NCBI GenBank assembly: GCA_016219965.1
Contig: JACRJM010000010.1
Span: forward strand, 124,001 to 188,000
Direction of reading: 5' to 3'
From: Candidatus Schekmanbacteria bacterium
Lineage (GTDB): Bacteria > Schekmanbacteria > GWA2-38-11 > J061
Length of the DNA: 64,000 nt
Shown: positions 6,947 to 38,823 of the stretch, piece by piece
Position numbering within the stretch: position 1 is the stretch's first letter
Layout: every line of letters starts with the position of its first letter
Notes under the pieces: model-generated
The model's database searches: none
The model's input: only the letters and a program-made list of their open reading frames with translations
What the model was told of the DNA's origin: nothing
Made by a program: the position numbers and the translations under genes

Positions 6947-6976
6947 ATTAACAAAACCTCACACACATATATTATC

Positions 6977-9634: not shown

Positions 9635-10195
9635 CTACCATTCATAGTGGCATTTGAGGCACGACTCTCTTGTGTCCTCTTTTTCATGGCACTTGAAACA
9701 GTTCTCCATGCGGGGCCTGTTAGTCTGCGGTTCCTCCTTGTCATGGGAAATGTTTGCATGGCAGTCAGTGCATTGCGCACCTACATCCTCAAGATGGAAC
9801 TTGTGCGGTATTTTAATATTAAGAGGATTAGTTTTAAACCCAATCTGCTCGTTAGTCTTTGTAATATTCTCGTGGCACCTGATGCAGTTAGGAGTTACCA
9901 TATTATCATCAGCTGAATAGTAGCGCGGGATTATCTGTTCATGTTTGGTGTGGCACTCAGGACATCTCACACTTTCCGGATGGACCTTGGATTCCCTCCA
10001 GAATTCGGAATAAGCCTGCTTATAGTGACAGCCCATGCAGAACTGCCGTCTCGTCGTAGTATATTGTTCTAAAACCACAAAAGACGTACTTCCTGCAATA
10101 ATGGCAATAACTCCTATCACACACCATCCCTTGAAGGTCAAGTGCGGTATCTTCCTCACAGTTTTTACAAAAAAATCAACAGCCTTATTAAACAC
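9635..10195 (-). CDS. Six-heme membrane-anchored cytochrome c (NapC/NrfH-like N-terminus)
   Basis: 186 residues with one N-terminal anchor helix (about 23-43) and six CXXCH sites: CMGCH, CPECH, CIRCH, CTDCH, CFKCH, CLKCH. The first part (FCMGCHYKQAYSEFW) matches the NapC/NrfH/NirT pattern, where a membrane tetraheme takes electrons from quinol. The rest is a compact triheme-like module. It follows the molybdopterin-like gene by 33 bases and is the last large gene of the Rieske/b/Qrc-like operon. It probably connects that complex with periplasmic carriers. AGGTGTTTA precedes the ATG. Confidence 0.88.
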   Translation of the reverse strand: MFNKAVDFFVKTVRKIPHLTFKGWCVIGVIAIIAGSTSFVVLEQYTTTRRQFCMGCHYKQAYSEFWRESKVHPESVRCPECHTKHEQIIPRYYSADDNMVTPNCIRCHENITKTNEQIGFKTNPLNIKIPHKFHLEDVGAQCTDCHANISHDKEEPQTNRPRMENCFKCHEKEDTRESCLKCHYEW

Positions 10196-10228: not shown

Positions 10229-12550
10229 TTATGCCTTGCTTATCCTTACAACAGTGTCCATCCAGCTCTGACCGCCGCCTATGGGATCAGCTTTTAGAGC
10301 AATCACGGGATTAGGATTAACTCCGTTCCCTTCTTCTTCCCACCAGATGAAATCAGTGTTTGGATCTTCACTTTCGAAACTTTCAGCAAGAGCTACATGT
10401 CCATATTTGTTATGCCCGCAGCTGTCAGACACTGCAATTACCTGCGGATGAATGCCGTTAGTAAGCCATGCCTTTCCTGTAATACTCCCTTTTTTGGAAG
10501 TCAGTTTAACCATATCTTCTTTTTTTATTCCCATTTTTTCCGCAACATCAGCATTTATCCAGATTCCATTATGATGGATGATTTCTGAAAGCCACATGCA
10601 GTTTGATGTCCTGTCATGGGTATGGACATTGTACTGGAATTTAACAAGTATAAACTCATCCCCCTTAAGGCTTTTATGTTCTTCTATGGGATGATATGAA
10701 GGAAGCGGGTCAAACCCTGCTTTTTCAAGCCGTTCCGAGTAAATCTCTATTTTTCCGGAAGGAGTATTAAATCCCTTTTGCTTATAACTCTGGTATTCAG
10801 GAACAACGTTTGAATCAGCCCAGAAGCCATTTTGTGCAAGGTAGTCAATTCCGCCTGCTGCATCGAGCCCGGGTATTTTTGAGGCAATCTGCCTCACATA
10901 ATCTTTTGAATCCTTAAACGGGAAGGCTCCGGCAACTCCTTCTCCGACAACATTTGCAAGCTTGATAATGATATCTGTGAATGCCATGCTGTCACCCAGC
11001 GGCTTCACAACAGGCTGTCTTAAACTTACAAAAGGAATAAAGTTCATTGCAGGTGGAGATTCAAGCTCCCATCTTTCAAGATAGCTTGCAGACGGAAGGA
11101 TTAAGTCAGCAAGGTCACAAGTCTCCGAGTAATACGAATCTATGGCAACATGAAACGGGATAAGTTTCTCATCCTTAAGAACAGCGGCAGCGCCTACGTT
11201 GTCCGGAACCGAATACGCCGGGTTATAGTTATAAGTCATATAAACGCCGCACTTATATTTTCCTCCCGCTATTTTTGAAAGAACCTGGTCCTCAGGCTCA
11301 CCGGCAATAAACGGGGATTCACGGCGGTCAAGAATGCTGCTTTTTGCCGAAGGGGGCTGAGGTGCCGGTGCCAAATCTTCAAGCGCGAAGCACCGCGGCA
11401 TACAGTATCCTCCTTTTACATCAATATTCCCGGTAATAACATTAAGAAGGAATATACACCGTTCACTGTAAACTCCATTGACATGTTTTGTAACCCCTCC
11501 TGTGGATATGGTAGTTGCCGGCTTTGTCTCGGCAAACTCGAGTGCGACTCTCCTGATATCGTTAGCAGGAACACCGCTCTCTTTTTCCGCAAGGTCGAGG
11601 GTATATCTCTTAAGATGCAAAGCGAGCTTCTCCGGAGAATAGTTGGTCCATTTTTCTATAAACTCCCGATCATAAAGCCCGTCTTCCATAATTACATTCG
11701 CCATTGCAAGCGCCACAATCGCATCAGTTCCCGGCTTTATAGGATGCCATTCATCGCTTCTTCCTGCTGTCTGAGACATTCGCGCATCGAAGGTAACTAT
11801 CTTTGCAGGTTTATGGATCTTATTTTCATCAATCCTCTCTGACCTCGCCTCTACGATTCTCTGGACAAAGCTTGTCCTCAATATAAAAGCTTCATAAGGA
11901 TTGGAGCCGAAATTAAGGATATATTGTGTGTTGGCAACATCGCTTATGTCCAGATCAGAACCCCAGGAAAGCATATGAGCGACTTTCTTGTTGTTCCCGC
12001 CAAGAAAGGCATCAGCAAATACATTGGGTGAACCATAAGCATGGAGAAATCTTTTAGCCAGATTTTGTGTGGTTATATCGCGGGGGCTCTGAAAAATAAA
12101 CTCTTCCGGATGACCTTCAGTTTTAAGCTCTTTCAGCTTTGAAGCAGTCATATCCAGAGCATCCTGCCATGATATTTTCTCCCATTTTCCTTCGCCGCGT
12201 TTTCCCACTCTCTTCATGGGTGACAGGATCCGGTCAGGATCATAAACGAGATTTACACCGGCCTGCCCCTTGGCACAAAGCCTTCCTCTGCTGTTCGGGT
12301 GGGCGGGATTGCCTTCCAGCTTGGTTATTCTCCTGTATTCTACAAACCCCATGATTCCGCACCTGGCATAGCAGTTAAGGCATGTGGAAAATGTACCCTT
12401 TCTTTCTTTCTCAGTCGTCCTTGAAACACTGCGGCCTCCCATCTGGAGTTCCTGAGCTTCTATCTTCTTTTCTATGTAATTTCCCATAGCATAAGCAGAA
12501 GCACCTGCCGCAGAAACCTTTAAAAAATCCCTTCTTTTCATTGCACACAT
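10229..12550 (-). CDS. Tat-exported molybdopterin-like subunit lacking the usual Mo-ligand Cys/Ser
   Basis: 773-residue DMSO reductase superfamily protein with a Tat leader (KRRDFLKVS), a complete [4Fe-4S] motif (CLNCYARC, then LCAKG) and the cofactor-domain motifs FGSNPYEA and KPGTDAIVAL. Where relatives carry a Mo-binding Cys or Ser just before a GNKK-type motif, this protein reads FLGGNNKKVAH near residue 182, with Gly at the expected position. It sits between NrfD and a multiheme cytochrome. That is the setting of QrcB (quinone reductase complex) and of ActB, molybdopterin-family subunits that act as electron scaffolds without Mo. A role as an electron-relay subunit is therefore more likely than substrate catalysis, but unusual ligands cannot be excluded. 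The ATG at 12541 giving MKRRDF is an alternative start. Confidence 0.85.
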   Translation of the reverse strand: MCAMKRRDFLKVSAAGASAYAMGNYIEKKIEAQELQMGGRSVSRTTEKERKGTFSTCLNCYARCGIMGFVEYRRITKLEGNPAHPNSRGRLCAKGQAGVNLVYDPDRILSPMKRVGKRGEGKWEKISWQDALDMTASKLKELKTEGHPEEFIFQSPRDITTQNLAKRFLHAYGSPNVFADAFLGGNNKKVAHMLSWGSDLDISDVANTQYILNFGSNPYEAFILRTSFVQRIVEARSERIDENKIHKPAKIVTFDARMSQTAGRSDEWHPIKPGTDAIVALAMANVIMEDGLYDREFIEKWTNYSPEKLALHLKRYTLDLAEKESGVPANDIRRVALEFAETKPATTISTGGVTKHVNGVYSERCIFLLNVITGNIDVKGGYCMPRCFALEDLAPAPQPPSAKSSILDRRESPFIAGEPEDQVLSKIAGGKYKCGVYMTYNYNPAYSVPDNVGAAAVLKDEKLIPFHVAIDSYYSETCDLADLILPSASYLERWELESPPAMNFIPFVSLRQPVVKPLGDSMAFTDIIIKLANVVGEGVAGAFPFKDSKDYVRQIASKIPGLDAAGGIDYLAQNGFWADSNVVPEYQSYKQKGFNTPSGKIEIYSERLEKAGFDPLPSYHPIEEHKSLKGDEFILVKFQYNVHTHDRTSNCMWLSEIIHHNGIWINADVAEKMGIKKEDMVKLTSKKGSITGKAWLTNGIHPQVIAVSDSCGHNKYGHVALAESFESEDPNTDFIWWEEEGNGVNPNPVIALKADPIGGGQSWMDTVVRISKA

Positions 12551-12576: not shown

Positions 12577-13491
12577 TCAGTGCAGAGGAAGACTCTGCCC
12601 CGCGATAACGACCACGACGCGCATTGAGTAAACACCCAACAATGTCAGCAAAGAAGCAAAAACTGTATTCCCCAGAGCTTTATTAAACTTGGGACTAAGC
12701 AGAATCACAAGCGGCACCAGCCCGCCTATGATCAACTCGACAAAAACAAACTCAAGACTGAAGTCACCAAAAAGAATAAGCTTTGCAACCCTTAGCGCTT
12801 CCTCCGTCGATGTAAGAAGGACGAGGATGTCGTTAAACACGAGGAAAAGATCAAAGAGGATCGCAAAGGCAAGATACGTGCCGAGCTGACATATAAGCGT
12901 TTTATCTGCCTCTCTCTGTTCCGATGTCATCTTCCCGTAAAAGTACTTGTTCCTTATTGCCGCAAGGACAATCATCATTGCAAAACCCGAAACCATTGCA
13001 GAAACAATGAAGAGGGTCGGCATGAGAGCCGTTGACCATAGAGCTCTTCCTTTACCAAGGGCAAGTATGAAACCTGTGTATCCATGAGTTGCAATAGCAA
13101 GAGGGATTCCTATGATACCAAGCCTCTTGGCTAGCTTGTCCCTTCCGGTAAAGAGGTAATATGCGTAGATAATACCGTTTATCGGATAGGCAGTAAGAAG
13201 AAAACTTCCGTATGTTATTGGCGATTTCGGATTGAGGTACAAGAAAAGGTGCCAGAACCGCAAAGGCTGTTCAAGGTCAACGATAAGGGTAGACGGCGCC
13301 AGCACGAGGAGTATTGGAGCCATTAAAGCGCCAATCCTCCCTATCGGTTTAAACTCTGTTTTCCCGCCAAGGGTAGAAAGAACAGAGATAACAAATGAAC
13401 CTGCACTCAATCCTGTAAGATAAAAATATGTTGCTATCCAGTAACCCAAAGGCATTTCATAAGGTGTATTGTATACGACATTCACATCCAT
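12577..13491 (-). CDS. NrfD/PsrC/QrcD-type quinone-interacting membrane subunit
   Basis: 304-residue integral membrane protein with about eight hydrophobic helices, starting YWIATYFYLTGLSAGSF as in NrfD-family proteins. Such subunits exchange electrons with the quinone pool next to a four-cluster Fe-S partner, and in Qrc and alternative complex III may help move charge. The gene begins three bases after the Fe-S gene and ends 26 bases before the molybdopterin-like gene, so the three form a tight FeS-NrfD-Mo module. No extra domains are visible. Confidence 0.92.
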   Translation of the reverse strand: MDVNVVYNTPYEMPLGYWIATYFYLTGLSAGSFVISVLSTLGGKTEFKPIGRIGALMAPILLVLAPSTLIVDLEQPLRFWHLFLYLNPKSPITYGSFLLTAYPINGIIYAYYLFTGRDKLAKRLGIIGIPLAIATHGYTGFILALGKGRALWSTALMPTLFIVSAMVSGFAMMIVLAAIRNKYFYGKMTSEQREADKTLICQLGTYLAFAILFDLFLVFNDILVLLTSTEEALRVAKLILFGDFSLEFVFVELIIGGLVPLVILLSPKFNKALGNTVFASLLTLLGVYSMRVVVVIAGQSLPLH

Positions 13492-13494
13492 GAC

Positions 13495-14097
13495 TTATTC
13501 TCTCCCTTTCATCGGATCCATAACCTCGAGATCTGCCGCAATGTAGAAAACATGCGGTTTTGTAGCCATATCAGGCTTTAAAACCTGCACCGGATTCGTT
13601 GCAAGCAGTTTTGAAATCTCTGAATCAGGATCTTTGATATTCCCGAAAATACGTGCATGCCCCAGACATGTAACAACACATGCCGGCGCTATCCCCTGAT
13701 CAACCCTGTGCTCGCAGAAATAACATTTCTGTACGATCCGCTTTATTGGATTTACAAAACGGACATCGTAAGGACATGATGCGATGCAGTACTTGCATGC
13801 TATGCACCGGTGAGGGTCAACCATAACTATGCCGTCCTCTCTCTGGTACGATGCCTGTGTAGGGCAGTTCTGTACGCAGATCGGTTTTTCACAGTTATTG
13901 CATAACGAGGGGAGAAAAGAACGGCTCACGTTCGGATACTGTCCCTTCTCAATTATTTTTACCCATGATCTGAAAACGCTTAACGGAACATCATTCTCAC
14001 TCTTGCAGGCGACAGAACAGCTGTGGCACCCGATACAGCGCCTCAGATCTATCACCATTGCATATCTTGGTGTTTTCTTTTCTTTAGTCTCTGCCAT
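13495..14097 (-). CDS. Four-cluster [4Fe-4S] subunit (PsrB/QrcC type)
   Basis: 200 residues with four cysteine groups: CIGCHSCSVAC, CNNCEKPICVQNC, CIACKYCIASC, and CYFC followed by PACVVTC. This is the DmsB/PsrB/QrcC arrangement for a wire of four cubane clusters. There is no export signal; it would travel with the Tat-leader partner. It is 19 bases downstream of the nine-heme cytochrome gene and three bases upstream of the NrfD gene. It probably carries electrons between the NrfD quinone site and the molybdopterin-like and heme subunits. Confidence 0.93.
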   Translation of the reverse strand: MAETKEKKTPRYAMVIDLRRCIGCHSCSVACKSENDVPLSVFRSWVKIIEKGQYPNVSRSFLPSLCNNCEKPICVQNCPTQASYQREDGIVMVDPHRCIACKYCIASCPYDVRFVNPIKRIVQKCYFCEHRVDQGIAPACVVTCLGHARIFGNIKDPDSEISKLLATNPVQVLKPDMATKPHVFYIAADLEVMDPMKGRE

Positions 14098-14116: not shown

Positions 14117-15409
14117 TCAACTCTTTTTTTTTGCTGTCCTCTCATACTCATCCGTTACCACCCTCAACTTCGCATAAAGAAGGATGACAATCAAAACTAT
14201 GATAACCAAATAATAGACAAGGTTCTTTTTCCTCATATCCAGTCCCTGCTTGAATTCCGAAACAGTCTGCTGAACCTTATCTGTGTTCGCCGTAATTTTT
14301 GTCTTCAACTCATTTATCTTCTCCAGGTTCAACGAATGGGTAAGAGGACCAATCTCCTTGTAATAAGTCCCCGCCTCATTCATAAGGTCCTCGATGTCCT
14401 GGTTGTTCCTTCCTGAATATTCTATGCTTAGTACTTCTTTGTTAGCTCTGTCAACCTCGCCCTTAGTATCCAGTATTACCGCGTAAATATCTTTTGCCAG
14501 TTGCTGGATGTCATTGCCCTGATGACAGGCGCCGCAATGTCCGGATTCAACTCCCTGGAACATCTCAGGGGCAAGCATCTTGTTCTTGTGACTTCCATGA
14601 CAGTCATAACATTTAGGGCTTCCGTTCTTCTGCAGTGCAGCATAATGAGGCCCTTCCCTGAACTTGTCGAGCACTGTGCCGTGACAGCTGCCGCAAACCT
14701 CTGCTACATCCTTAACTCCCGGAGGTGTTGCGCCATGAGTGCCGTGGCAAGTCGCACAGTTAGGAACCAGTGCAGGGTTCTTGTCCTTTACTTTCCCATA
14801 AAGAATCTGTCCATGATACCCTTCTTTGTAGAGAGCAAGCTGTTCGGCTTTGATCCCATATTTGCTCATAAGCTGAGAATCCGCATGGCACTTCCCGCAG
14901 GTATCGGGTACATTGGTATAATATACCGAAGAGCCGGGATCATTTACTTTCTTTATGTCATGGGCTCCATGACAGTTTGAGCAGACCGCTACATTTGTGT
15001 CCCCTTTTTCAAGCTGTATTCCGTGAATACTTGTCTTGTATTGATCATACTGGTCTGTTCTTACGTTGTACTTCCTCATCCTTACAGTGTCAGAATGGCA
15101 CTTCGCGCAAAGTTCAGGGACCGCTTTCTTAGACGGCTTTCCTATAAAACCTTTTGCCTGATACATTGCCTTGTCCATGTCATCATCTACAAGAGGGTTG
15201 CCGCCGTGACAATCCTGGCAATAAATCCCTTCTGCTTTATGTATACTTGTTTCCCACTGGGTAACTACCTTCTGAGCCTCTCCGTCAAGTCCCCTGTGGC
15301 AGGTAACACATCCATTGTTCTCTGCAAAAACAGGAGCAACAGCTATTACACTGCTGATTAGCAAAAGAGTACAAACTAACATTAGTGTCCTCTTTGGATT
15401 CATTTTCAT
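14117..15409 (-). CDS. Nine-heme cytochrome c with coiled coil and C-terminal anchor
   Basis: About 430 residues. After a signal sequence ending near VFAEN there are nine CXXCH sites (CVTCH, CQDCH, CAKCH, CSNCH, CGKCH, CATCH, CGSCH, CYDCH, CGACH) with interspersed SIHG and YHG histidines typical of distal ligands. A charged, heptad-like region follows (LAKDIYAVILDTKGEV onward), then a C-terminal helix (LVYYLVIIVLIVILLYA) anchoring it in the membrane. AAGGAATT precedes ATG codons at 15409 and 15403; the longer reading to 15478 would overlap the cytochrome b gene. It lies between the b-type subunits and the Fe-S/NrfD/Mo module, so it is a good candidate for the link between the two halves of this complex. 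Confidence 0.88.
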   Translation of the reverse strand: MKMNPKRTLMLVCTLLLISSVIAVAPVFAENNGCVTCHRGLDGEAQKVVTQWETSIHKAEGIYCQDCHGGNPLVDDDMDKAMYQAKGFIGKPSKKAVPELCAKCHSDTVRMRKYNVRTDQYDQYKTSIHGIQLEKGDTNVAVCSNCHGAHDIKKVNDPGSSVYYTNVPDTCGKCHADSQLMSKYGIKAEQLALYKEGYHGQILYGKVKDKNPALVPNCATCHGTHGATPPGVKDVAEVCGSCHGTVLDKFREGPHYAALQKNGSPKCYDCHGSHKNKMLAPEMFQGVESGHCGACHQGNDIQQLAKDIYAVILDTKGEVDRANKEVLSIEYSGRNNQDIEDLMNEAGTYYKEIGPLTHSLNLEKINELKTKITANTDKVQQTVSEFKQGLDMRKKNLVYYLVIIVLIVILLYAKLRVVTDEYERTAKKKS

Positions 15410-15459
15410 AATTCCTTTTTTTATTGGCATATTCCTTTTTTTGTTATTTGAATAATTGA

Positions 15460-15888
15460 TCAAGAATAATGACCCCATATTGTGAGGGCTGCAAATGAGA
15501 TAACGCCCACTATACCGAGCAGAATGGCAAACTTCCTCCTGCTGGGTTTACGTTCAGGGTTCTTATCAAAAAACGGAAACAATACGAGGAGTGCAAACAC
15601 TACTCCCTGACCGAGAACGCCAATTACCTTTGGCGCCCACTGTCCAAGAACATCAAGATACTCTGCCACTTTAAGCCACTGGTAAGCCGCAAGAAAATAC
15701 CATTCCGGTTTTATATGTTCCGGTGTTGTAAATGGATCTGCCGGTGGCTCCATCGGTGCAGGATACAAAGTGGCCAGAGTAATCAGACCGCCAAATACAA
15801 TAAATGCAACTATAATTTCTTTTAATATATGATTAGGAAAAAAAGGTATCCCTTTTTCCTCTTCATGTTTTTTTTCAGTATTACTCAT
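15460..15888 (-). CDS. Cytochrome b subunit IV-like C-terminal half (PEWY)
   Basis: 142 residues with three hydrophobic helices and the quinol-oxidation loop PEWYFL preceded by DPFTTPEHIK, the signature of the C-terminal part of cytochrome b and of b6f subunit IV. It completes the split cytochrome b encoded directly upstream at 15930-16649. With the Rieske protein it would form a quinol-oxidising core. The gene is followed 50 bases later by the nine-heme cytochrome, which takes the place of cytochrome f or c1 as probable acceptor. Confidence 0.93.
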   Translation of the reverse strand: MSNTEKKHEEEKGIPFFPNHILKEIIVAFIVFGGLITLATLYPAPMEPPADPFTTPEHIKPEWYFLAAYQWLKVAEYLDVLGQWAPKVIGVLGQGVVFALLVLFPFFDKNPERKPSRRKFAILLGIVGVISFAALTIWGHYS

Positions 15889-15929: not shown

Positions 15930-16649
15930 TTATAATGCCTCTGATATCCCCTGCCGTCTGATCATAAGGAAATGACTGATAAGAAAAACTGCTATTGCAG
16001 CCGGCAGAATCAGGACATGAATCGCAAAAAATCTTGTAAGTGTTGCCTGTGAAATATCACTACCACCCCTTATGAGCATTTTTATGAGATCACCGGCAAC
16101 CGGCATTGCACTCGGGACCTCTGTACCAACCGTTGTTGCCCAGTACGATATCTGGTTCCAGGGGAGGAGATATCCGGTAAAACCGAACCCCAGTGTAACA
16201 CAAAGGAGCATTACCCCTGTGACCCAGTTGAAGTCGCGGGGTGCCTTATAGGCTCCGTAGAAAAAGACCCTTAACATGTGTAAAAGACAGAACACACTCA
16301 TAAGGTTTGCCGCCCAGTGATGAATGCCGCGCATTAGCCATCCGAAGGGGACATTATTCGTTATATGAACAACACTTTTGTAAGCCTCGGCAGTAGTAGG
16401 TTGATAATACATGAGAAGAAGCACTCCTGTAAAAGCCTGAACTATAAAAAGCAGGAATGTCACTCCGCCAAAGCAGAACAACCAGTTAACATGATCAGGA
16501 ACGGGCTTTTTAAGATTTTTCTCAAGAGCCTCTCTAATGCTTAACCTATCATCAAGAGGACCATAAACAAAACCAGTAAGTGAAATCAGGTTTATAATTT
16601 CCCTGAAACTTGTCCGTTTTTCCAAATCCTTATGTTCATTGTCAGCCAT
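15930..16649 (-). CDS. Cytochrome b6-like diheme subunit of Rieske/cyt b complex
   Basis: 239 residues, four transmembrane helices. Heme-b ligands are visible as HHWAANLMSVFCLLH (His-X13-His) and IHVLILPAAIAVFLISH (His-X14-His); the X14 spacing is the b6 form. The GYLLPWNQISYWATTVGTE segment is the Qo-site cd region. Together with the PEWY subunit downstream this is a split cytochrome b as in b6f and in many Firmicutes and anaerobes. It sits 16 bases after the Rieske gene. It should move electrons across the membrane between quinone sites as part of a proton-translocating complex. Confidence 0.94.
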   Translation of the reverse strand: MADNEHKDLEKRTSFREIINLISLTGFVYGPLDDRLSIREALEKNLKKPVPDHVNWLFCFGGVTFLLFIVQAFTGVLLLMYYQPTTAEAYKSVVHITNNVPFGWLMRGIHHWAANLMSVFCLLHMLRVFFYGAYKAPRDFNWVTGVMLLCVTLGFGFTGYLLPWNQISYWATTVGTEVPSAMPVAGDLIKMLIRGGSDISQATLTRFFAIHVLILPAAIAVFLISHFLMIRRQGISEAL

Positions 16650-16665
16650 TTTATATTTAGCCTCC

Positions 16666-17109
16666 CTAACCTATTTTAATAACGTTCTCTTTAATTTCAG
16701 CTTTGAACGTCTCAAGGGGCTTGGGAGCAGGTCCTCCAAGCACATTTCCCCTCAAGTCAAACTTTGCAGCATGGCAGGGACACTCAATAAGTTTTTCCCC
16801 ATCATGCCAGTTCACAAGGCATCCAAGGTGAGGACACACAGCGGAAAGGGCAAAAACCCCTTCTTTGGTTCTCACTACGATTGCAGGATTAGCCTTGTAC
16901 CTGATTTTTCTCGAAGAGCCTTCAGGAACATCTGAGAGAGGAATCGAAACGGAATCTTCAGTATTAGTGCCAATCGATTTCTTCGATGGCCAAAGATATG
17001 CACCAGTCACATAAACAGTTAATAAAGCCCACGAGGTTACCCCGAACCCAATCATATAATCAAGAAACGTACGCCTCCCGAAAACATCACCCTTACTGCT
17101 CTCTTCCAT
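16666..17109 (-). CDS. Rieske [2Fe-2S] protein
   Basis: 147 residues: an N-terminal membrane helix (MIGFGVTSWALLTVYVTGAYLWP) and a Rieske fold with cluster ligands CPHLGC and CPCH plus the AKFDLRGNVLGGPAPKPL loop. It would take the first electron from quinol at the cytochrome b Qo site and pass it to a c-type heme. It starts 89 bases after the receiver-cytochrome fusion gene and is the first gene of the b6/IV unit. No Tat RR pair is evident in the leader (FGRRTFLDYMIG does contain RRTFLD, so Tat targeting, usual for Rieske proteins, is quite possible). Confidence 0.94.
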   Translation of the reverse strand: MEESSKGDVFGRRTFLDYMIGFGVTSWALLTVYVTGAYLWPSKKSIGTNTEDSVSIPLSDVPEGSSRKIRYKANPAIVVRTKEGVFALSAVCPHLGCLVNWHDGEKLIECPCHAAKFDLRGNVLGGPAPKPLETFKAEIKENVIKIG

Positions 17110-17198: not shown

Positions 17199-19001
17199 TT
17201 AAAGCTTAGCCGACTTCTGGCTCTTTTTAAAAAGCATTTCTCTTGCCTGATTTATATATTCCTTGGATTTATCCAAAAGAGCTATTGCATAGTCAATGTT
17301 GTGCACTCCTTTTGAATACTCTACGAATTCAATATTGTATTTTGCGTCATCATAAAGTTTCTTAATATTATCAGGAGCTCCTCCAACAAGCGGTGCAATC
17401 TGGCTGAGCAATGCCTTAGTTTCTTTAAGCTGTGCATTGACTGAATCTTTCCAATCCTTGAGTATCCCCTTATAGTCATTGCCATGACAGGAAATGCACC
17501 CATCCTCAGAAGGACGGAGAGTAAAACCGTCAAACTGGGTATGGTCATTTACCTTATCTTTATTTACATGACAGCCTATACAATCCACCTGGGCGATAAA
17601 CATGGGGCTTGGCATTTTCTCTACACCTCTGCCGCTAATACCCATATAAAGTTCTTTCTGTCCTGTATGTTTATCCTTGTGGCAGATATCACAGCTATAC
17701 TCAAGAGGTTTAACGCTCGTTTTTACGCTATGTTTGATCTCCGTGTGGCATCTGGTGCATTCAACCTTCTTATCTGTAACATGATGTTTATGGAGAAATT
17801 CAAAATCATTATATTTTGCAAGGCGCTCTGGCTCGCCGTGGCAGGTTACGCAAAACTCTTTAGGAACCTCTCCTAATCCTTTCACTACCTCAAGATGGCA
17901 TTTCTGGCAGGCAACCCCTTTGCCTGCAAAATCCTGATGATTGTATGTGATGCTTTCAAATTGAATATCCTGTGTTGGTATCTCATGGCAGATTGTACAT
18001 TTTGCTTGTGTTTCCCAAAGCGATGGGTCTTTTTCAAGACCGTTAAAATGACAGGTAAAACATGTTGTCTCAGTAACCGCAATATGCGACCCCTGAACTA
18101 TCTGCGAATGACATGACGTACATCTGAGCTTAATGCCTCCCCTCATCTGTGTAAGATGCGGTGTATGGTCAAAGACTATACCCTTTTTGAAAAGAACCTT
18201 GCCGCTTAAGAGCCTTGTCGCATGACACCCTGTGCGCAGACATGAAGCATCTTCTATCTGGGCATAGGGTTTTGTGCTGTATGTCCCGGTAAGGAATTTT
18301 ACAACCTGTGTTGCAGCCTGAAATTTTCCCTTTATCTCTTCCCTGAAGCCCGGAGGATAATGACAGTCAACACAGGCAACTGTATTATGTCTCGAATTTT
18401 TCCACATGTCATAGTAAGGCCTCATAATATGGCATGAATTGCAGAAGGTAGGACTCATACTGAATTGGATAAATCCAATGCTTCCCACTATAACAACAGC
18501 AAAAAAAATTCCTATGCTGTAATAAATCCTCTTTGAAACATGGATGACATCATCTTTTCCCACAGGGAAATGTATTCCGATAAAATCAAAAGACTTGCGC
18601 CACCATGCTCTTGATTTTATATTTCCTTCCTCAACTATCTTGTTTCTTTCAATCTGTTTTTTTGCAATTGAAACGAGCTTGTTGAGATTAACCGGTTTAA
18701 CAACGTAATCAGCCGCACCATAAGTGATTAGTTCGCCGCCAGATTCTTCAACAACTCCGGAAGCAACAATTATTACCCGCGTATCAGGGTTTATCCTGAG
18801 AATCTCTTTTAAAACATCAACACTGCTTCTGTCAGGAATGTTATAATCAAGGAAAACAACAGCAGGTATTTCTGAAGTCATCCTGATTAAAGCTTCAGAA
18901 GCCGTTGAAAAAACCTCGTATTCTAAACCTTCCCCATTGAATCTTGCAGCTACTGTCTTTTGAAAGCTCTCATCCGCATCGATTATGAAAATCTTCTTCA
19001 T
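17199..19001 (-). CDS. Receiver domain fused to a transmembrane 12-heme cytochrome c
   Basis: 600 residues with an unusual order. Residues 1-120 are a CheY-like receiver with acidic D8/D10, phospho-acceptor D52 in FLDYNIP, S81 and K102 in VVKPV, so the active site looks intact. A linker follows, then one membrane helix (about 159-179), then a NapC/NrfH-like and longer multiheme region in the periplasm: CNSCH starts at 187, eleven CXXCH in all plus one CX4CH (CLRTGCH). The C-terminal 90 residues are helical and heme-free. The cytochrome part is paralogous to the protein encoded at 19259-21244. No DNA-binding or enzymatic output domain is present, so phosphorylation might gate assembly or electron flow of the cytochrome itself. 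It has its own -24/-12 promoter and leads into the Rieske operon. Confidence 0.9.
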   Translation of the reverse strand: MKKIFIIDADESFQKTVAARFNGEGLEYEVFSTASEALIRMTSEIPAVVFLDYNIPDRSSVDVLKEILRINPDTRVIIVASGVVEESGGELITYGAADYVVKPVNLNKLVSIAKKQIERNKIVEEGNIKSRAWWRKSFDFIGIHFPVGKDDVIHVSKRIYYSIGIFFAVVIVGSIGFIQFSMSPTFCNSCHIMRPYYDMWKNSRHNTVACVDCHYPPGFREEIKGKFQAATQVVKFLTGTYSTKPYAQIEDASCLRTGCHATRLLSGKVLFKKGIVFDHTPHLTQMRGGIKLRCTSCHSQIVQGSHIAVTETTCFTCHFNGLEKDPSLWETQAKCTICHEIPTQDIQFESITYNHQDFAGKGVACQKCHLEVVKGLGEVPKEFCVTCHGEPERLAKYNDFEFLHKHHVTDKKVECTRCHTEIKHSVKTSVKPLEYSCDICHKDKHTGQKELYMGISGRGVEKMPSPMFIAQVDCIGCHVNKDKVNDHTQFDGFTLRPSEDGCISCHGNDYKGILKDWKDSVNAQLKETKALLSQIAPLVGGAPDNIKKLYDDAKYNIEFVEYSKGVHNIDYAIALLDKSKEYINQAREMLFKKSQKSAKL

Positions 19002-19106: not shown

Positions 19107-19122
19107 AGCAAATACTGTGCCA
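19107..19122 (-). promoter_or_regulatory. Sigma-54 promoter before the receiver-cytochrome/Rieske operon
   Basis: Minus-strand reading TGGCACAGTATTTGCT has GG and GC ten bases apart and a full TGGCAC half. Transcription would start near 19096, about 95 bases before the start codon at 19001. A near-palindrome (CTGATAT and ATATCAG, 19157-19177) lies about 35 bases upstream and might be a regulator site. Confidence 0.75.
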
Positions 19123-19258: not shown

Positions 19259-21244
19259 TCAGGCTGTTGGGGAGACTTTTTTCTGCTGTGTAAAAAGTTG
19301 ATCCCATAATGCATTAAAAGTCCCCTCCACTTTATTCAGAGAAGCTTTTGCCTGCTCGAAATTGTGTACTGCCTGGCCTCTCTTTATAAATTCAATGACA
19401 TTTACACCATTCATAAAAGATTTCCTAAAGGCAGTCACATCCATTTTCTTTTCTCTTTCAGCGCCTTCAATGGCAATTTCAATTTTTTCCTTCATTTCTT
19501 CTATGCTTTTTATTTTTGCTTCTATTACCTTTTTCCATTCATCAGGCATGGTCCTGTATTTATCATCATGGCATCCTTTGCAACGCTCCAATCCAGATGA
19601 AGCAGGCTCACCCTTTGAAGGAAGGTGGCAGTCTGCGCAGCCGACACCCGCTGTTGCCATGGAATCAGGAGACATATCAGAGATATATTCTTTCCCTTTT
19701 CCATAGTAGAGCTTGTATTCCTGCTTGTGGCACCTGCTGCAGTCCGCTGTTTTGTCATCGCCGCCATGATGACAGGCTGCACAATCTTTAAGCGTAAGAG
19801 TCGTACTCTTGTGTTTTGTATTTGAATGGCATTCGGTACAATCTATGCCGAAATCAGATATATGCATATTATGAGGAAAATCAATGCTTCTGTAAGGGAA
19901 TACCTTATCGGTTTCTATATAGTTATGGCACAATGTGGCGCAATAGTTCCCCTTCATCTTGAGAATGCTGTCCTTGTCAGGGTCCTTCCCCTGATCCTTT
20001 ATTAAATTCTCCGCCACTCCGTCTGCCATTCCAAGAAGTTTCACCGCATACTCAATATTATGAAATCCCCCTGACTTTCTCACAAAATCAAGGTTGAAAA
20101 CCGCGTCATTGTACTCTTTAGAAGATTTGCCGGTTGAAACGAGCTTCAGCCTCCTGTCAACATAACCTGCAAGGGAATCCACTCCGCTCTTCCATGATCG
20201 CAGCATTAAATCATAACCTTTTTCATGGCAGGCAAGGCATGACTTTTCATTAGCGGCAGCGATTGCTTCGCCCAGCACATGCTTGCCGCCCACAACATGC
20301 ACTTCCGTATGACAACCGTCGCAGGCAACCTGAGCTGCAAACATACGACTTGGGACATCTGTTATCCCTTTTCCCATAACGCCCATATACATCTCTTTCT
20401 GATAGCCATGCATATTCTGATGGCACCCCTCGCACTTTACTTCAAGAGGATTAGTCATCTTTATATTGCCATGTTTTATTTTTTCATGGCAATAAAAGCA
20501 GTCTATCCCTTTTTCAGATACATGCTTGTCATGAATAAACTTATGATCATCATATTTCTCGACCCGTGACGGATGGCAGGAATAGCACTTGTCATGATTC
20601 ACTTCTCCTGTGCCGCTTACAACTGATGTATGGCAGCGATTGCACTCTATCCCGGTAGCTATATATTCTTTAAGGTTCACAGAGTAACCGCCATGGTTTA
20701 CCATCCCTTCAGGAACTCCATGACAGGAAGGACAACCTGTAAAAGCCTGATTAACCTGCATCCCCTTAAAATGACAAAGAAAGCAGACATCTTCAGTCAC
20801 ACCTACATGGCTCCCCTGCACTATCTGGGAATGACAGCTTGTACATCTCAGCATCTTTCCTCTCAGCATGGTACCCATGTGGAGTTTGTGGTCAAAAACT
20901 ATTTTCATTGCAAAAGCCTCTTTGCTGTTAATCATCCTGTCACTGTGACAGCCGCTTGCAAGACAGCTTTCATTTTTAACATCTCCGATAGGCCTTGGAT
21001 TATAGTAACCCATGAAATAGACTAAAGCGCTTGCCGTTATTTTCCCCATTTTATAATCATGACACTGAATGCATCCCACCTTGTTGTGTGTTGATTTCTG
21101 CCATTGTTCATAATAGGGTTTCATGTAATGGCATTTGAGGCAGAACTCCGGATTTTTAAAACTTCTGTGGAGTATTTGTGTAACCGCTATGGAAACAACA
21201 GCTATGATTGCAAAAACAATTAATATATTTTTTATAATTTTCAT
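19259..21244 (-). CDS. 18-heme membrane-anchored cytochrome c (NapC/NrfH-like, two modules)
   Basis: 661 residues: N-terminal anchor helix (about 5-25), then a NrfH-like start (FCLKCHYMKPYYEQW) and a long heme region. I count sixteen CXXCH, one CX4CH (CLASGCH) and one CX3CH (CATLCH). Residues 1-400 parallel the cytochrome part of the receiver fusion at 17199-19001, sharing the CX4CH, the CTSCHSQIVQGSH block, the KEMYMG block and a heme-free helical stretch with FHNIEYA. A second, shorter module of about five hemes follows and ends with another helical stretch (VHNFEQA). It is the last gene of the c/b operon, 15 bases after a cytochrome b gene, and could collect electrons from the three c/b units in the periplasm. 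Confidence 0.88.
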   Translation of the reverse strand: MKIIKNILIVFAIIAVVSIAVTQILHRSFKNPEFCLKCHYMKPYYEQWQKSTHNKVGCIQCHDYKMGKITASALVYFMGYYNPRPIGDVKNESCLASGCHSDRMINSKEAFAMKIVFDHKLHMGTMLRGKMLRCTSCHSQIVQGSHVGVTEDVCFLCHFKGMQVNQAFTGCPSCHGVPEGMVNHGGYSVNLKEYIATGIECNRCHTSVVSGTGEVNHDKCYSCHPSRVEKYDDHKFIHDKHVSEKGIDCFYCHEKIKHGNIKMTNPLEVKCEGCHQNMHGYQKEMYMGVMGKGITDVPSRMFAAQVACDGCHTEVHVVGGKHVLGEAIAAANEKSCLACHEKGYDLMLRSWKSGVDSLAGYVDRRLKLVSTGKSSKEYNDAVFNLDFVRKSGGFHNIEYAVKLLGMADGVAENLIKDQGKDPDKDSILKMKGNYCATLCHNYIETDKVFPYRSIDFPHNMHISDFGIDCTECHSNTKHKSTTLTLKDCAACHHGGDDKTADCSRCHKQEYKLYYGKGKEYISDMSPDSMATAGVGCADCHLPSKGEPASSGLERCKGCHDDKYRTMPDEWKKVIEAKIKSIEEMKEKIEIAIEGAEREKKMDVTAFRKSFMNGVNVIEFIKRGQAVHNFEQAKASLNKVEGTFNALWDQLFTQQKKVSPTA

Positions 21245-21259: not shown

Positions 21260-22228
21260 CTAATGCTTCCCTCGGTGTTTTTTGTCCTTCATTATCATTT
21301 CATATTCAAGCGGATGCTCTTCAATCATGTCCTCTTTGGAAATTTTCCCGTTCCACCAGACCCAGCTCATCGGGAAAACCTTGGGATTGAAATGAACATT
21401 ATAGAAATGCCATATAAGGATGGCCAACGTGCAAAGCAATCCTTCGTCGCTGTGAGCCTCCTTGCAGATATCAACAATTGTCTTGCCGAACATATTTATT
21501 GATTCTACTTCTACCCACATGAGAAAACCTGAACCTATCATTACAAGACAGCCCCAGTAAACAGCCCAGTAATCGAATTTTTCAATGTAGGAGAAACGTC
21601 CGAACTTTGGCTTCTCGGTAGCATATCCAAAAAAATATTTTATCATCTGGATTACATCAAAAATATCCTTTGGCCCCGGAAGAAGTTCAAGGAAATCCTT
21701 TCTCCCCTGCCGCGTAAAAGGCGTATAAATCAGAACATGATAGGTAAACATAGCTATAAGCCCAACTGCACCTATCCTGTGGATGAACGTGACAGTTCCC
21801 ATCCCTCCGATAAGTTTAATTAAGAACGAGGCAATTCCCGTATAATAAAACTTCTCAGGCATTCCGGTTAAAATAAGGATAATACAGCTTGAGAAAAGCA
21901 GCATATGCTGGGCCCTGAAGTTTATTCCGAATCTTACAAAGAAATCCTCACCTTCCTTTTCTGCCAATATTCCATGACTTGCCGCATCAGCCTTTGCTCT
22001 TTCCATTTTAGCTATTTCTTTAGCAGGCTGGTTTTTAATATAATCAAGAAGGGCTTTCTCCTTTATGCTTGCATAACCTTCAAGAATATCGGAAGCAATC
22101 TTTTCAACCTCCTCTTCCTTATAGCCATTGCCGTATTTCTCGCGCAATTCCTCTATGATCTGTTTTCTCACCTTGTCCCTGAGTTCATTTCCGTTATCTG
22201 CCAAGTCTTTATCATTTTTCTCGTTCAT
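21260..22228 (-). CDS. Cytochrome b (HydC/FdnI-like) subunit, third c/b module
   Basis: 322 residues. A charged, helical N-terminal extension of about 100 residues, rich in Glu and Lys, precedes a four-helix di-heme cytochrome b domain like that of formate dehydrogenase gamma and hydrogenase HydC: RAQHMLLF, IHRIGAV, the TYHVL segment and LIWHFYNVHFNP hold the candidate His ligands. The conserved tail FPMSWVWWNGKISKEDM is shared with the two sister genes. Start at 22228 is chosen because its ATG overlaps the TGA of the upstream cytochrome c (ATGA). The N-terminal extension is absent in the sisters. It probably exchanges electrons between quinol and the nine-heme partner encoded just before. 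Confidence 0.88.
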   Translation of the reverse strand: MNEKNDKDLADNGNELRDKVRKQIIEELREKYGNGYKEEEVEKIASDILEGYASIKEKALLDYIKNQPAKEIAKMERAKADAASHGILAEKEGEDFFVRFGINFRAQHMLLFSSCIILILTGMPEKFYYTGIASFLIKLIGGMGTVTFIHRIGAVGLIAMFTYHVLIYTPFTRQGRKDFLELLPGPKDIFDVIQMIKYFFGYATEKPKFGRFSYIEKFDYWAVYWGCLVMIGSGFLMWVEVESINMFGKTIVDICKEAHSDEGLLCTLAILIWHFYNVHFNPKVFPMSWVWWNGKISKEDMIEEHPLEYEMIMKDKKHRGKH

Positions 22229-23307
22229 TCTCTGTTTTCCTTCCTTTTTTGCATCCTTTTTCGCAAATCGAGCATTATGTGAATTATGAGAACAAGCATT
22301 GTAGAAATCGTAAGAACCATAAAAGCCTTGGAAATATAATATACGATGCCCGATTCCTTGCTCTTGGGATTTATATGGACTTTCCCCTTTGCGAAATTTA
22401 CATTTGCTCCCGGATGGCATTTACCGCAAGTCTTAGGAATGTTGTTTATATTTATGGAAGACCCGGGATCCTCTGAAGCCCTTATATCATGATACCCGTG
22501 ACAGCTTGAACAGTTTGCCGCCTTCTTTACTCCGAATTCTACGGCTATCCCATGAAAGCTCTCATCGTAAGTCGCAACCTGTTCAGTGGGTATGCCGTAT
22601 TTCTCCATTATCTGCACTTTATCATGACAGGCTGAACATGTTTTTGTAATATGAGCGGCAGAAACCGTTGACCTTGCATCTTCGGGTTTGAATATATTAT
22701 GTTCGCCATGACAGCTTGTACATACTGGAACATCTTTGTTTCCTGCTTTGAATTGGGTGCCATGGATACTTGTATTGAAATCCACATATTCCTGAAGGTG
22801 GCACTTACCGCAGGTCTTGGGGATATTTTCCCTCGCATCAGCAGACCTTAAATCTGAAGGCTTGAATATATTGTGTTTGCCGTGGCAGTCCTGGCATTGC
22901 GGTGCAGACTGGTTCCCTGCAAAAAGAGCTTTGCCATGAATGCTGTTCTTGTATTCTATATATTTCACAGTCTCAGGAGCGCCGGACGGATTGCCGAGGA
23001 AATGGCACTGGTTTGCGCAGTTTACCTTACCTATCACATTTCTGTGCGGTATCTGTTTCACATCTGTGTGACAGTCAGTACAAAGCTTCTTTCCATGAAC
23101 AGTTTCGGAAAACTCTTTAAAGTTGATATAAAGACTAATAACTTTTCCGGTCTTCAGAGGATTAGCAAAACCTACTTTGCCGTGACAGACAAAACACTTT
23201 GAGTTTTCCTCATCTGCATGGACTGTTGCAGGAATGACAAAGAAAGCACAAAAGAGTGAAGCCATGAAAAAAAATCCTCTAAATTTTTCTGCTGCCTTAA
23301 GATCCAT
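22225..23307 (-). CDS. Nine-heme cytochrome c with C-terminal anchor, third c/b module
   Basis: 360 residues: a signal sequence ending near VHADE, eight CXXCH plus one CX3CH (CANQCH), and repeated blocks of the form SIHG/FHG ... CxxCHGxHxI ... TCGKCH. A C-terminal membrane helix (AFMVLTISTMLVLIIHIML) and basic tail keep it at the inner membrane. It begins directly at the stop of the preceding cytochrome b gene (TAAATG) and overlaps the following one by four bases. It is homologous to the N-terminal part of the fused protein at 25240-27201, so the pair with 21260-22228 is a split version of that protein. Confidence 0.88.
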   Translation of the reverse strand: MDLKAAEKFRGFFFMASLFCAFFVIPATVHADEENSKCFVCHGKVGFANPLKTGKVISLYINFKEFSETVHGKKLCTDCHTDVKQIPHRNVIGKVNCANQCHFLGNPSGAPETVKYIEYKNSIHGKALFAGNQSAPQCQDCHGKHNIFKPSDLRSADARENIPKTCGKCHLQEYVDFNTSIHGTQFKAGNKDVPVCTSCHGEHNIFKPEDARSTVSAAHITKTCSACHDKVQIMEKYGIPTEQVATYDESFHGIAVEFGVKKAANCSSCHGYHDIRASEDPGSSININNIPKTCGKCHPGANVNFAKGKVHINPKSKESGIVYYISKAFMVLTISTMLVLIIHIMLDLRKRMQKRKENRE

Positions 23308-27201: not shown

Positions 27202-27383
27202 CTCTGTCCCCCTCCCTCTTTCTTCTGCTGGTAAACAGGACAACTTTTGAAATTCCCGGACAGGCAGAATTCCATTATTTCCTTCTTGCTTGGAAATTTA
27301 ATGCCTTCCTTAAATCCCAGGCATTTCACCACTGCCTCTTCGCTGTAGTAGGTACAGCGTATAGTTACATTCAGTTTATCCAT
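27198..27383 (-). CDS. Small Cys-containing cytoplasmic protein coupled to the CbcL-like gene
   Basis: 61 residues with no signal or membrane helix. Four cysteines stand out: C10, C21 and the pair in FCLSGNFKSCPVY near the C-terminus. The TGA overlaps the ATG of the CbcL-like gene (ATGA), a sign of translational coupling and so of real expression. AGGG stands seven bases before the ATG. I do not recognise the family; the CxxGxFxxCPVY ending resembles short Cys motifs seen in small proteins near redox genes, possibly a metal, cluster or thiol-redox site. A regulatory or assembly role for the downstream cytochromes is only a guess. Confidence 0.7.
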   Translation of the reverse strand: MDKLNVTIRCTYYSEEAVVKCLGFKEGIKFPSKKEIMEFCLSGNFKSCPVYQQKKEGGGQR

Positions 27384-27644: not shown

Positions 27645-29021
27645 CTATTGCCCTTCTTCGAAATCAGAGCGCTTGATGTTGTATTTTTTGATTTTCCTGT
27701 AGAAGGTCTTGGTCCCAACGCCGGCCTGCCTTATGGCACTTGCCACGTTTCCGCGATATTTTGCCATTATTTCCCGCAGATAATTGCTCTCATAGATATC
27801 AAGCCATTGAGGAAGCGAATAACCTGTTATATCCACTGTCTTTTTGACATTTTCTCTTGAATCATCGGGAAGATCCAGTTTTGAAATGGTGTTGCCATGT
27901 TCAAGTATTACGCCCCTCTCTATTATATTCTCAAGCTCCCTCACATTGCCGGGCCATCTGTAGCGCATCATCTTATCGAGTACATCCTGAGATATGGCGG
28001 ATATATCCTTACCCATCTTTTCAGCATTTTTCCTCAGGAAATGGAGGGCAAGAATCGGTACATCTTCCATCCTTTCGCGCAGCGGCGGGATATGGATGGG
28101 AACTACGTTTATCCTGTAGAAAAGATCTTCCCTGAAATTTCCTTTTTTTACCTCTTCCACAAGGTTTTTGTTTGTGGCGCAGATTATCCTGACATTCACT
28201 TTTATGGTGGAGTTTCCGCCAACCCTTTCAAACTCCATTTCCTGAACAAACCTTAAAAGCTTCACCTGCATGGTTTGTGTTATATCCCCTATCTCATCGA
28301 GAAAAACCGTGCCTCCGTCTGCAAATTCGAATTTGCCCAACTTCTGCCGCACAGCACCGGTAAATGACCCCTTTTCATGTCCGAAGAGTTCGCTTTCGAG
28401 CAGCGTTTCCGGAAGCGCCCCGCAGTTTATGGTCACAAACCTTTTGGATTTTCTGTAGCTGTTAAAATGCACAGCCCTTGCCACGAGTTCCTTGCCTGTG
28501 CCGGTTTCTCCTGTAATCATTACAGTCGAATCCGTAGGAGCAACCGTGGTTATGAGATCAAAGATGGATTTAATCTTGTGGTTCTGGCTGATTATATTGC
28601 CAAAGCGGTTTTTTTCTTCGACCTGGCTTTTAAGATATATATTCTCTTCGAGGAGTTTTAACCTCTCCAGAACTCTTTCAATGACAAGGAGTATCTCTTC
28701 AGACTCAAAGGGTTTGGCAAGATAGTCAACGGCTCCTCTTTTCATGGAGCTTACAGCTGTCTCGATGCTGCCGTGGGCTGTCATGATTATCACGGCTGTT
28801 TCAGGATATTTATTTTTTATAATATCGAGAAGTTCCAGCCCATCCATCTCAGGCATCCTTATATCAACCACAGCAACGCTGAACTGTTTAGCCTCAAGGA
28901 CTTTTAAAGCCTCTTTGCCGTTAAATGCAATTTCCACTTCATAGCCTTCCTTCTCAAGCACTCTTTTCAGGTGCTGGCATATAATACGCTCATCATCAAC
29001 AACAAGTATCTTCTGTCTCAT
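27645..29021 (-). CDS. Sigma-54-dependent response regulator (NtrC family)
   Basis: 458 residues from the ATG at 29021, which has GGAGG just upstream; an ATG five codons earlier precedes that site. Receiver (about 1-120) with VAVVDIRMP at the phospho-acceptor and LAKPF at the Lys; AAA+ domain with Walker A GETGTGKE and sigma-54 loop GSFTGA (Ser replaces the first Ala of GAFTGA, a known tolerated form); C-terminal Fis-type helix-turn-helix ([20 protein letters not shown]). It follows the CXXCH-containing kinase by a short gap and precedes the c/b operon. Likely targets are the -24/-12 promoters at 27396, 19107 or elsewhere in this island. Confidence 0.93.
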
Positions 29022-29047
29022 TATCGCCTCCGTCATTTTAATACACC

Positions 29048-31156
29048 TTATGCCTCATGATGAACCTCATCTGTAAATACGATAGTAAACTCAGTCCAGC
29101 TTCCTTCTTTACTCTCAACAGATATTGTCCCTTTATGAAGTTCAATTATCCTTTTTACTATTGCCATTCCAAGTCCCACACCCTTGCTTTTTGTAGTAAA
29201 GAACGGATCGAATACCTTGTATATATTCTCCCTGCTTATACCTATACCGGAATCCCTGATTTTCACAGTTACCTTTTTCTTCCCATCTTCTTCATCAGAA
29301 ATTGACGTCACTACTATTATACCACCTTTTGGCATTGCTTCAGCAGCATTCTGGAGGAGATTTGAAAAAACCTGTTTTATCTTGAAGGCATCCAGTTTTA
29401 TTACCGGCTCATGTAAGGCACCTTTCTGATAATTCTTTTTAATAGAAATCCCCTTAAGTGCAAACTCCTGTTCAAATTCCGAAAGCACTTCGTCGAGCAC
29501 TTCATTGATGTTATAATCAAAGACCTCGATGTTAAGAGGACGTGAAAAATCAAGAAGGTCCGAGACTATGGTGTTAAGCTTTTTTACACCCTCTGAAACG
29601 CCTTCAAGTGTTTTCCGGCTTTCGATATTATCTCCAAAATCATACTTTAAAAGCGATATGCCCATGCTGACGTTTTGCAATGGATTTTTTATCTCATGTG
29701 CTATACCTGCAATCATCTGTCCCACTGCTGAAAGCCTCTTTGAAAGTTCCAGTTCTTCTCCTATTCTTTTCTGAGCCGTTATATCCCTTACGTATTTAAT
29801 TACCTGAAAAACATCCCCATCCGCATTTCTTATGGGAAAGGTATATATCATCCAGTGTCTTATCTTTTTACTGTCACTATCGGAAAGCTCTCTTTCAATC
29901 TGGTAAGGCTTTCCCGTGGTAAGAGTATCCTTGACCGGGCAGACATCGCAGACATTGTCCCTTTTTGCAAATTGTTTATAACAGAAATCAGATTCATATG
30001 CATCTCCTTCCACATCCATCATCTCTTCCATTGCCCTGTTCATTGTAATTATTCTGTAATCCTTGTCAATTATACATATACCATCGGTTATACCATCAAA
30101 AAGGGTCTCAAGACGGTTCTTTGTTTCTATTATCTCCCTGCTCCATTTCATCATCTCCTCAATCCTTACCCTTCTTGAATTTATAACTATTGTATACATG
30201 CCAACAAAAAATATGAGGATAATAGAGGCACCGGAGAGAATGATTATATTCCTGTTAACAGAGGCAATGAAATGTGTGACATCAGTATAAGGTACTGATA
30301 TAGCGATAGCCCATGACTTTCCAGTATCGCGCGATTCTTTCCTGACAGATATCAGATTAATCGGGTAATAAACAACAAGCTTATCCTCGTTCCCTTTTAT
30401 GCCATATACAGCAGTGCCGCTATTGCCTGAAAGCATTTTTCTCTCTGTTTCAAACCTGTTTGTATGGCAGTCAAAACATTCCTCTGTATTTTTTAAAATA
30501 TTTCTTCCTTCCATTTCCTTGTGGAATGGATGGTGGACGAGGTTGCCATCACTTCCAATGATCCATGCGTAACTGCGTTCACTGGTCTTTAGCGGCTTTG
30601 CAAATTGCTCTGCAAGTCCTGTCACATCTATAAGGCAGCCTATGATATATTCATTGTCAGTATCCGGCGCGGAGTTATAACTTCCCGTAGGAAGAATAAT
30701 CATCTGCCTCTGTCTTGACCCCGGGATTAATGACTGAAGTTGTCTGTCTCCCTGCTGTGTTAATTTTATCGCTTCCCTGAGCGCTTTCCTGTCAATTGAT
30801 CTGCATTTATTTTCTTTAGGAAAAAATCTGAGCTCATTATTCCCGATTATAAAAACCGCACAAATATTTTCAATGTTCATAAAATAGCCGGAAAGAAAAA
30901 GGACATCCTTTTCGAAACCATTTCCCGAGTTAAGAGTACTTCCTGAAATTACATAATTTGCAAGATTAAGGTCATCTTCAATCCCTTTCAGGAACCTCCC
31001 GATTGAATATGAAACCTCGCGGGCAACAAGAATTTGCTGGTCAGAATACCGCTTAACAAGCTCTTCCTCAGATGACTTCTGGAGTCTTATTGAAAGGATG
31101 AATATCGAAGGGATAACCAGCAATATTATTACAAATGGAATTATATTTTTTTTCAT
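29048..31156 (-). CDS. Sensor histidine kinase with a c-heme motif in its periplasmic CACHE domain
   Basis: 702 residues. Membrane helices at about 5-22 and 298-322 bracket a 275-residue periplasmic double-CACHE region (membrane-distal to proximal, ending GSDGNLVHHPFHKEMEG). Just after that comes CFDCH at residues 227-231, a c-heme attachment site. A PAS domain follows with the Cys cluster CYKQF...CDVCP common in anaerobe PAS kinases, then HisKA (AHEIKNPLQN) and HATPase (NLLQNAAEAM, DSGIGI, GVGLGM). The first gene downstream is its response regulator. Heme in a periplasmic sensor domain suggests redox or ligand (NO, CO, O2) sensing outside the membrane, fitting control of the surrounding cytochrome genes. 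Periplasmic c-heme PAS sensors are known in Geobacter chemoreceptors. Confidence 0.9.
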   Translation of the reverse strand: MKKNIIPFVIILLVIPSIFILSIRLQKSSEEELVKRYSDQQILVAREVSYSIGRFLKGIEDDLNLANYVISGSTLNSGNGFEKDVLFLSGYFMNIENICAVFIIGNNELRFFPKENKCRSIDRKALREAIKLTQQGDRQLQSLIPGSRQRQMIILPTGSYNSAPDTDNEYIIGCLIDVTGLAEQFAKPLKTSERSYAWIIGSDGNLVHHPFHKEMEGRNILKNTEECFDCHTNRFETERKMLSGNSGTAVYGIKGNEDKLVVYYPINLISVRKESRDTGKSWAIAISVPYTDVTHFIASVNRNIIILSGASIILIFFVGMYTIVINSRRVRIEEMMKWSREIIETKNRLETLFDGITDGICIIDKDYRIITMNRAMEEMMDVEGDAYESDFCYKQFAKRDNVCDVCPVKDTLTTGKPYQIERELSDSDSKKIRHWMIYTFPIRNADGDVFQVIKYVRDITAQKRIGEELELSKRLSAVGQMIAGIAHEIKNPLQNVSMGISLLKYDFGDNIESRKTLEGVSEGVKKLNTIVSDLLDFSRPLNIEVFDYNINEVLDEVLSEFEQEFALKGISIKKNYQKGALHEPVIKLDAFKIKQVFSNLLQNAAEAMPKGGIIVVTSISDEEDGKKKVTVKIRDSGIGISRENIYKVFDPFFTTKSKGVGLGMAIVKRIIELHKGTISVESKEGSWTEFTIVFTDEVHHEA

Positions 31157-38766: not shown

Positions 38767-38823
38767 ATTATCCCTCCAGTTAATTTTTAATAAAATGATA
38801 GTGAAAATATGATACTTGGTGTC

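Follow-up and report, generated by a model that had tools for sequence, protein, structure and literature searches.

What does a response-regulator receiver do when it is encoded in one reading frame with a membrane-anchored multihaem cytochrome? Two-component systems are generally considered to influence respiration chiefly via transcription, and the attachment of a receiver to the haem wire of a bc-like complex would directly link the signalling and electron-transport machinery. The gene that raises this question lies in a 64,000-nucleotide stretch of Candidatus Schekmanbacteria DNA (hereafter the window), and its features are as follows.

17199..19001, minus strand: fusion gene, predicted pseudo-receiver plus membrane helix plus NapC/NrfH-like dodecahaem cytochrome (600 aa, ATG start)
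18642..19001, minus strand: receiver fold, residues 1-120 (Pfam Response_reg, AlphaFold, Foldseek, residue table)
18582..18686, minus strand: alpha5 and its extension, residues 106-140, one continuous predicted helix (DSSP on the model)
18531..18605, minus strand: juxtamembrane segment, residues 133-157, FIGIHFPVGKDDVIHVSKR (kept in orthologues and in the receiver-free relative G1400)
18462..18530, minus strand: single membrane helix, residues 158-180 (hydropathy and model)
17484..18443, minus strand: twelve haem motifs, residues 187-506, 11 CXXCH plus CX4CH at 254 (motif positions)
17202..17480, minus strand: C-terminal haem-free helical part, residues 508-600 (AlphaFold model)

The reading frame was uninterrupted over all 600 residues. 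Pfam matched Response_reg (PF00072) at residues 4-112 (E 4e-15, 56 bits, above cut-off) and Cytochrom_NNT (NapC/NirT, PF03264) at residues 163-244 (42.5 bits against a gathering cut-off of 24.1), while cytochrome c7/c3 families also matched above their Pfam cut-offs. The architecture was thus as the original prediction had described it, a receiver joined to a transmembrane multihaem cytochrome. The one membrane helix placed there at residues 159-179 coincided with the hydropathy maximum (about 159-182) and with a helix of the AlphaFold model (157-179), and our count of 11 CXXCH motifs and one CX4CH motif was the same. The first haem site has the NapC/NrfH-like start CNSCHIM, and the CX4CH motif is CLRTGCH. 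All 12 motifs lie C-terminal of the membrane helix and stood at matching places in the alignment of four orthologues. Against the tetrahaem NrfH equivalog TIGR03153 the protein scored 58.4 bits, below the cut-off of 134.2. In the AlphaFold model, for which window proteins and receivers of loci L001-L007 were used, the receiver blocks mostly reached 89-97 pLDDT (one block 65), and alpha5 extended as one helix to residue 140, followed by a short loop and then the membrane helix; the haem domain fell below 50 pLDDT, with no usable structure there. Foldseek matched the receiver model to NtrC1 and other receivers at TMt ~0.9. It is established that the dodecahaem cytochrome is membrane-anchored and that a receiver-fold domain precedes its membrane helix. 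The CX4CH form of the third haem site (18222-18242, minus strand) was also seen in the neighbouring paralogue at 19259-21244 and in homologues from the phylum of locus L004; in WOR-3 locus L022 the same site is CXXCH.

An assembly error or frameshift had been named in advance as an outcome that would undo the fusion. We give an artefact of this kind, chimaera included, a negligible probability, since orthologues were found in four of four genomes examined from the window's phylum (the window and G001-G003, spanning two families of one order), each time preceded by a sigma-54 promoter and directly followed by the genes for the Rieske protein, cytochrome b6 and subunit IV. The identical join was present, at full length and in open frame, in each of these separate genomes, where linker and synteny are also conserved, and the three other proteins were 71, 63 and 60% identical to that of the window. 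A TGA within the G003 match was considered as a disruption and rejected, as it is that gene's own stop codon near the 3' end. The receiver is less conserved than the haem part (45-58% vs 66-83% identity, for the window or G003 against the other orthologues). Synonymous divergence was saturated for most orthologue pairs; for G001/G002 the receiver gave dN 0.23-0.25 with dS ~1.5 (dN/dS ~0.15-0.17), compared with dN 0.07-0.08 for the haem part. From these values the fused receiver is under purifying selection, less strongly than the haem part.

We aligned the active site of the fused receivers, ungapped around the site, with CheY and 29 receivers of this and other genomes. D8 (DD1), D52, P56 (the proline at D+4), the aromatic switch Y99 and K102 were invariant in all four fused receivers. 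D8 aligned to CheY D12 and A9 to CheY D13, which places the second acidic position at an alanine.

18975..18977, minus strand: DD2 site A9, not acidic (residue table)

This DD2 site was Ala, Ser, Val or Asn across the four orthologues, whereas all 30 comparison receivers have Asp there. The position of CheY T87, the Thr site, corresponded to A80 in the window, not to S81, and read A, A, S and S across the orthologues. D10 was rejected as a member of the DD pair: the ungapped spacing sets it one position too late, at a third position that is D or E in 25 of the 30 ordinary receivers. The receiver had been called intact, which was wrong. Among the residues cited for it, D8 as DD1, D52 and K102 held, and D10 as a DD residue and S81 as the Thr site did not, so that the full DD, D, T/S and K set of a phosphorylatable receiver is incomplete at DD2 and, in two of the four orthologues, at the T site. 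DD2 binds the metal directly, and a domain without any one of the five active-site residues is classed as a pseudo-receiver (Bourret et al., 2025, PMC12632262). DD2 is non-acidic in about 80% of pseudo-receivers, whose mechanisms, according to the same 2025 review, remain a mystery (PMC12632262). Since the domain matches PF00072 and DD2 is missing in all four orthologues, the fused receiver is, judged by its residues, a pseudo-receiver under this definition. With a key metal-binding residue missing, an ordinary phosphate-switch role appears unlikely.

The gating by phosphorylation proposed in the original prediction called on kinases encoded in the window. One pair of two-component genes lies upstream of the fusion.

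27645..29036, minus strand: NtrC-type sigma-54 activator, conserved in G001 (Pfam, synteny)
29048..31156, minus strand: sensor kinase with CFDCH in its N-terminal, probably periplasmic, part (Pfam, synteny)

The kinase carries PAS, HisKA and ATPase domains, and its G001 orthologue (L068, 6735-8882) has the motif CFQCH. Because a single CXXCH occurs in the N-terminal sensor part in both genomes, the kinase is plausibly a haem-c sensor. Under phospho-gating, a histidine kinase, perhaps this one, would phosphorylate D52 and thereby switch quinol access, assembly or conduction. The presence of an upstream kinase and NtrC regulator, conserved in G001, is consistent with such a scheme, as is the invariant P56, and we keep it as a possibility because D52, K102 and Y99 never vary. 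We consider it unlikely, however: DD2 was lost in four of four fused receivers and the T residue in two of four, and the candidate kinase has an adjacent regulator of its own. Helix alpha1 is the main kinase-docking surface of receivers. Between window and G001, 2 of 11 alpha1 residues were kept in the fused receiver vs 7 of 11 in the receiver of the neighbouring NtrC regulator, a comparison that is suggestive only, since whole-receiver identity is lower for the fused domain as well (44% vs 63%). The beta3 loop, alpha4 and the beta5-alpha5 loop were kept about equally in the two. Gating by the window kinases was therefore weakened, the receiver being a pseudo-receiver by the usual criteria, with a poorly kept alpha1, and each of the two window kinases adjoining its own NtrC-type regulator; the conserved D52 and K102 still speak for it. 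The second kinase, at 6977-8446, belongs to a module at 5570-9437 (minus strand), at the end of the fusion operon, in which it is accompanied by a phosphonate-type binding protein and an NtrC regulator. This module resembles a TtrS/TtrR-like sensing module and had no counterpart in the G001 stretch compared.

The surrounding genes point to the complex on which the receiver would act.

19259..21244, minus strand: receiver-free NapC-like multihaem paralogue, upstream neighbour of the fusion (Pfam)
16666..17109, minus strand: Rieske iron-sulfur protein, PetC/QcrA type (profile match, synteny)
15930..16649, minus strand: cytochrome b6 (profile match, synteny)
15460..15888, minus strand: subunit IV-like C-terminal cytochrome b part (position and sequence; no NCBIfam match)
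14117..15478, minus strand: multihaem cytochrome c (Pfam, synteny)
13495..14097, minus strand: 4Fe-4S ferredoxin subunit, TtrB/DsrO/NrfC like (profile match)
12577..13491, minus strand: NrfD/DsrP-like membrane subunit (profile match)
10229..12550, minus strand: molybdopterin oxidoreductase, PhsA-like, below the PhsA cut-off (profile match)
9635..10195, minus strand: small multihaem cytochrome c (synteny)

In all four phylum genomes the fusion gene is followed, in this order, by the genes for the Rieske protein, cytochrome b6, subunit IV and the multihaem cytochrome. Beyond these, G001 and G002 share with the window the genes for the Fe-S protein, NrfD and the molybdopterin enzyme; synteny in G003 was traced only to the multihaem gene. 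From this gene order, the fusion cytochrome would most likely be a subunit of a Rieske/cytochrome b respiratory complex, and it may hand electrons on to periplasmic cytochromes. What had been called a periplasmic heme wire can thereby be specified as the encoded multihaem component of a Rieske/cytochrome b operon. Further upstream, at 21260-27243 (minus strand), b561-type and multihaem cytochrome genes recur in a row that is kept in G001-G003 and in WOR-3 loci L089-L091; it includes a multihaem-b561 fusion gene at 25240-27243 (minus strand). The cytochrome b at 21260-22420 (minus strand) carries about 100 or more extra residues at its N-terminus, a charged extension that overlaps the preceding gene, and the start codon may lie further in. 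At 36697-41068 (minus strand) an ethylbenzene-dehydrogenase-like haem domain protein adjoins another molybdopterin oxidoreductase.

The promoter region of the fusion gene contains a recognisable motif.

19107..19122, minus strand: sigma-54 promoter motif TGGCACAGTATTTGCT, 121 bp before the fusion ATG (motif match)

Searching for TGGCAC-N5-TTGC, we found this motif before all four fusion genes, with 1 mismatch in G003 and 0 in the window, G001 and G002. Among such regions of shuffled sequence, no more than 0.4% contained a match with 1 mismatch or fewer; within 300 bp of 37 other window genes no such match was found. From their adjacency, the haem-c kinase/NtrC pair probably drives the fusion promoter. 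A second exact motif lies at 5318-5333 (minus strand), 309 bp or more before an ORF at 4311-5009 that has no Pfam match, and it also precedes a TtrA-like molybdopterin protein at 1051-4278. The regulatory setting bears on the possibility that the receiver signals inward, such that a redox change at the haems or the quinol site would alter the receiver, which would sequester or modulate the kinase or NtrC regulator and so feed back on transcription. By its promoter the operon is sigma-54 dependent in four genomes, the haem-c kinase and NtrC regulator are encoded nearby in two, and the review discusses pseudo-receivers whose target is the kinase or regulator of the same system (PMC12632262). The signal would, however, have to pass from a rigid haem domain along a single membrane helix, and we regard inward signalling as improbable.

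The reading that we prefer, with a probability of about 0.42, is that the pseudo-receiver serves as a phosphorylation-independent (or weakly phosphorylation-dependent) docking and dimerisation module affecting how the complex assembles or works. The fused domain keeps the receiver fold with its Asp, Lys and switch Tyr and has lost the Mg2+-ligand Asp. It would dock and dimerise in the cytoplasm through alpha5 and its extension, and a soluble partner would control complex assembly or activity without a stable phospho-Asp. Protein supply would be set by the sigma-54 promoter, probably via the haem-c sensor kinase and NtrC regulator encoded nearby. Both the docking of a partner and the direction of control are steps that we infer. 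Because D52, K102 and Y99 are invariant despite the divergence of the receiver, there is room for residual phosphorylation. The same three residues bear on whether the receiver might be a mere scaffold for assembly, stability or dimerisation, or a relic, with no signalling at all. Its faster evolution relative to the haem part and its pseudo-receiver residues would fit a scaffold or relic, but it is full length in four genomes, the G001/G002 dN/dS is low, and the invariance of D52, K102 and Y99 at 44% receiver identity (four sequences) exceeds what a pure scaffold needs. We therefore think this quite unlikely. A wider picture, in which a Rieske/cytochrome b complex has its electron-carrying subunit controlled from the cytoplasm by a built-in receiver, through post-translational gating or redox feedback to transcription, is one that we think less likely than not.

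Several known systems share parts of this design. The NrfH/NapC-NirT quinol dehydrogenases (PF03264, TIGR03153), with NrfH 2j7a as the closest solved chain of the NapC type, have in common with the fusion the N-terminal membrane helix, the CX2CHxM first haem site and the first-haem motif order. The fusion differs in having 12 haems rather than 4, in scoring below the NrfH cut-off, in its added cytoplasmic receiver, and in being encoded with Rieske/b6 rather than with NrfA. Receivers of the NtrC/DctD type with a long alpha5 linker helix (1qkk, 1ny5, 4l4u) were among the best sequence and fold matches and likewise show an extended alpha5, but in the fusion a membrane helix follows instead of an AAA+ or HTH domain. 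Pseudo-receivers and atypical response regulators such as FrzS, the second receiver of PleD and CmrT (PMC12632262) also have a receiver fold lacking at least one active-site residue; the fusion departs from them in that its output is a transmembrane respiratory cytochrome and in that phospho-acceptor Asp, Lys and switch Tyr are all kept. It is thus a natural test case for pseudo-receiver action outside transcription factors. The original prediction knew of no described protein with a receiver on a multihaem cytochrome, and in the open-access papers that we searched we likewise found no published fusion of this kind.

The cytochrome of the fusion was scattered in other phyla, in several cases beside Rieske and b6 genes, and lacked a receiver wherever examined, including 78 cytochrome ORFs of other phyla (61 + 17; some are paralogues or repeat views of one locus). 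The receiver-free form occurred in 20 of 296 sampled genomes from the phylum of Nitrospiraceae locus L004, 12 of 147 from that of WOR-3 locus L005 and 1 of 192 from that of Bacteriovoracaceae locus L006; 349 genomes from the phylum of Marinisporobacter locus L001 gave 5 distant receiver-free matches, the cytochrome was not found in 399 from the phylum of Woeseia locus L007, and 17 further genomes across the whole domain had it without receiver. A scan of genome contigs for the fusion returned receiver-only matches, and a plasmid search gave no match covering 80%; because the query was the fusion protein and few candidates were scored per genome, these searches would miss a receiver fused to an unrelated cytochrome. 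The parts are known, and it appears that their combination is new and, within the searched genomes, restricted to one small phylum.

The four fusions formed one clade (support 100/99). NapC-type multihaem cytochromes without a receiver stand beside Rieske/cytochrome b genes at, for example, G1400 L106 and locus L092 of a WOR-3 MAG. The closest receiver-free relative, that of G1400, was 54% identical over residues 135-583. Like the fusion, it has 12 haems and adjacent Rieske and b6 genes, and it starts with the same segment directly before the membrane helix (VIGIHVPVDRKDILHFSPRF vs FIGIHFPVGKDDVIHVSKRI); it differs in having no receiver. Since this relative already has the conserved juxtamembrane segment, the receiver was set before a pre-existing tail, and by these sequence comparisons it is a single gain, in the ancestor of the small phylum, ahead of that conserved cytoplasmic tail. 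Receiver-free relatives with the same tail provide a ready-made control for what the receiver contributes.
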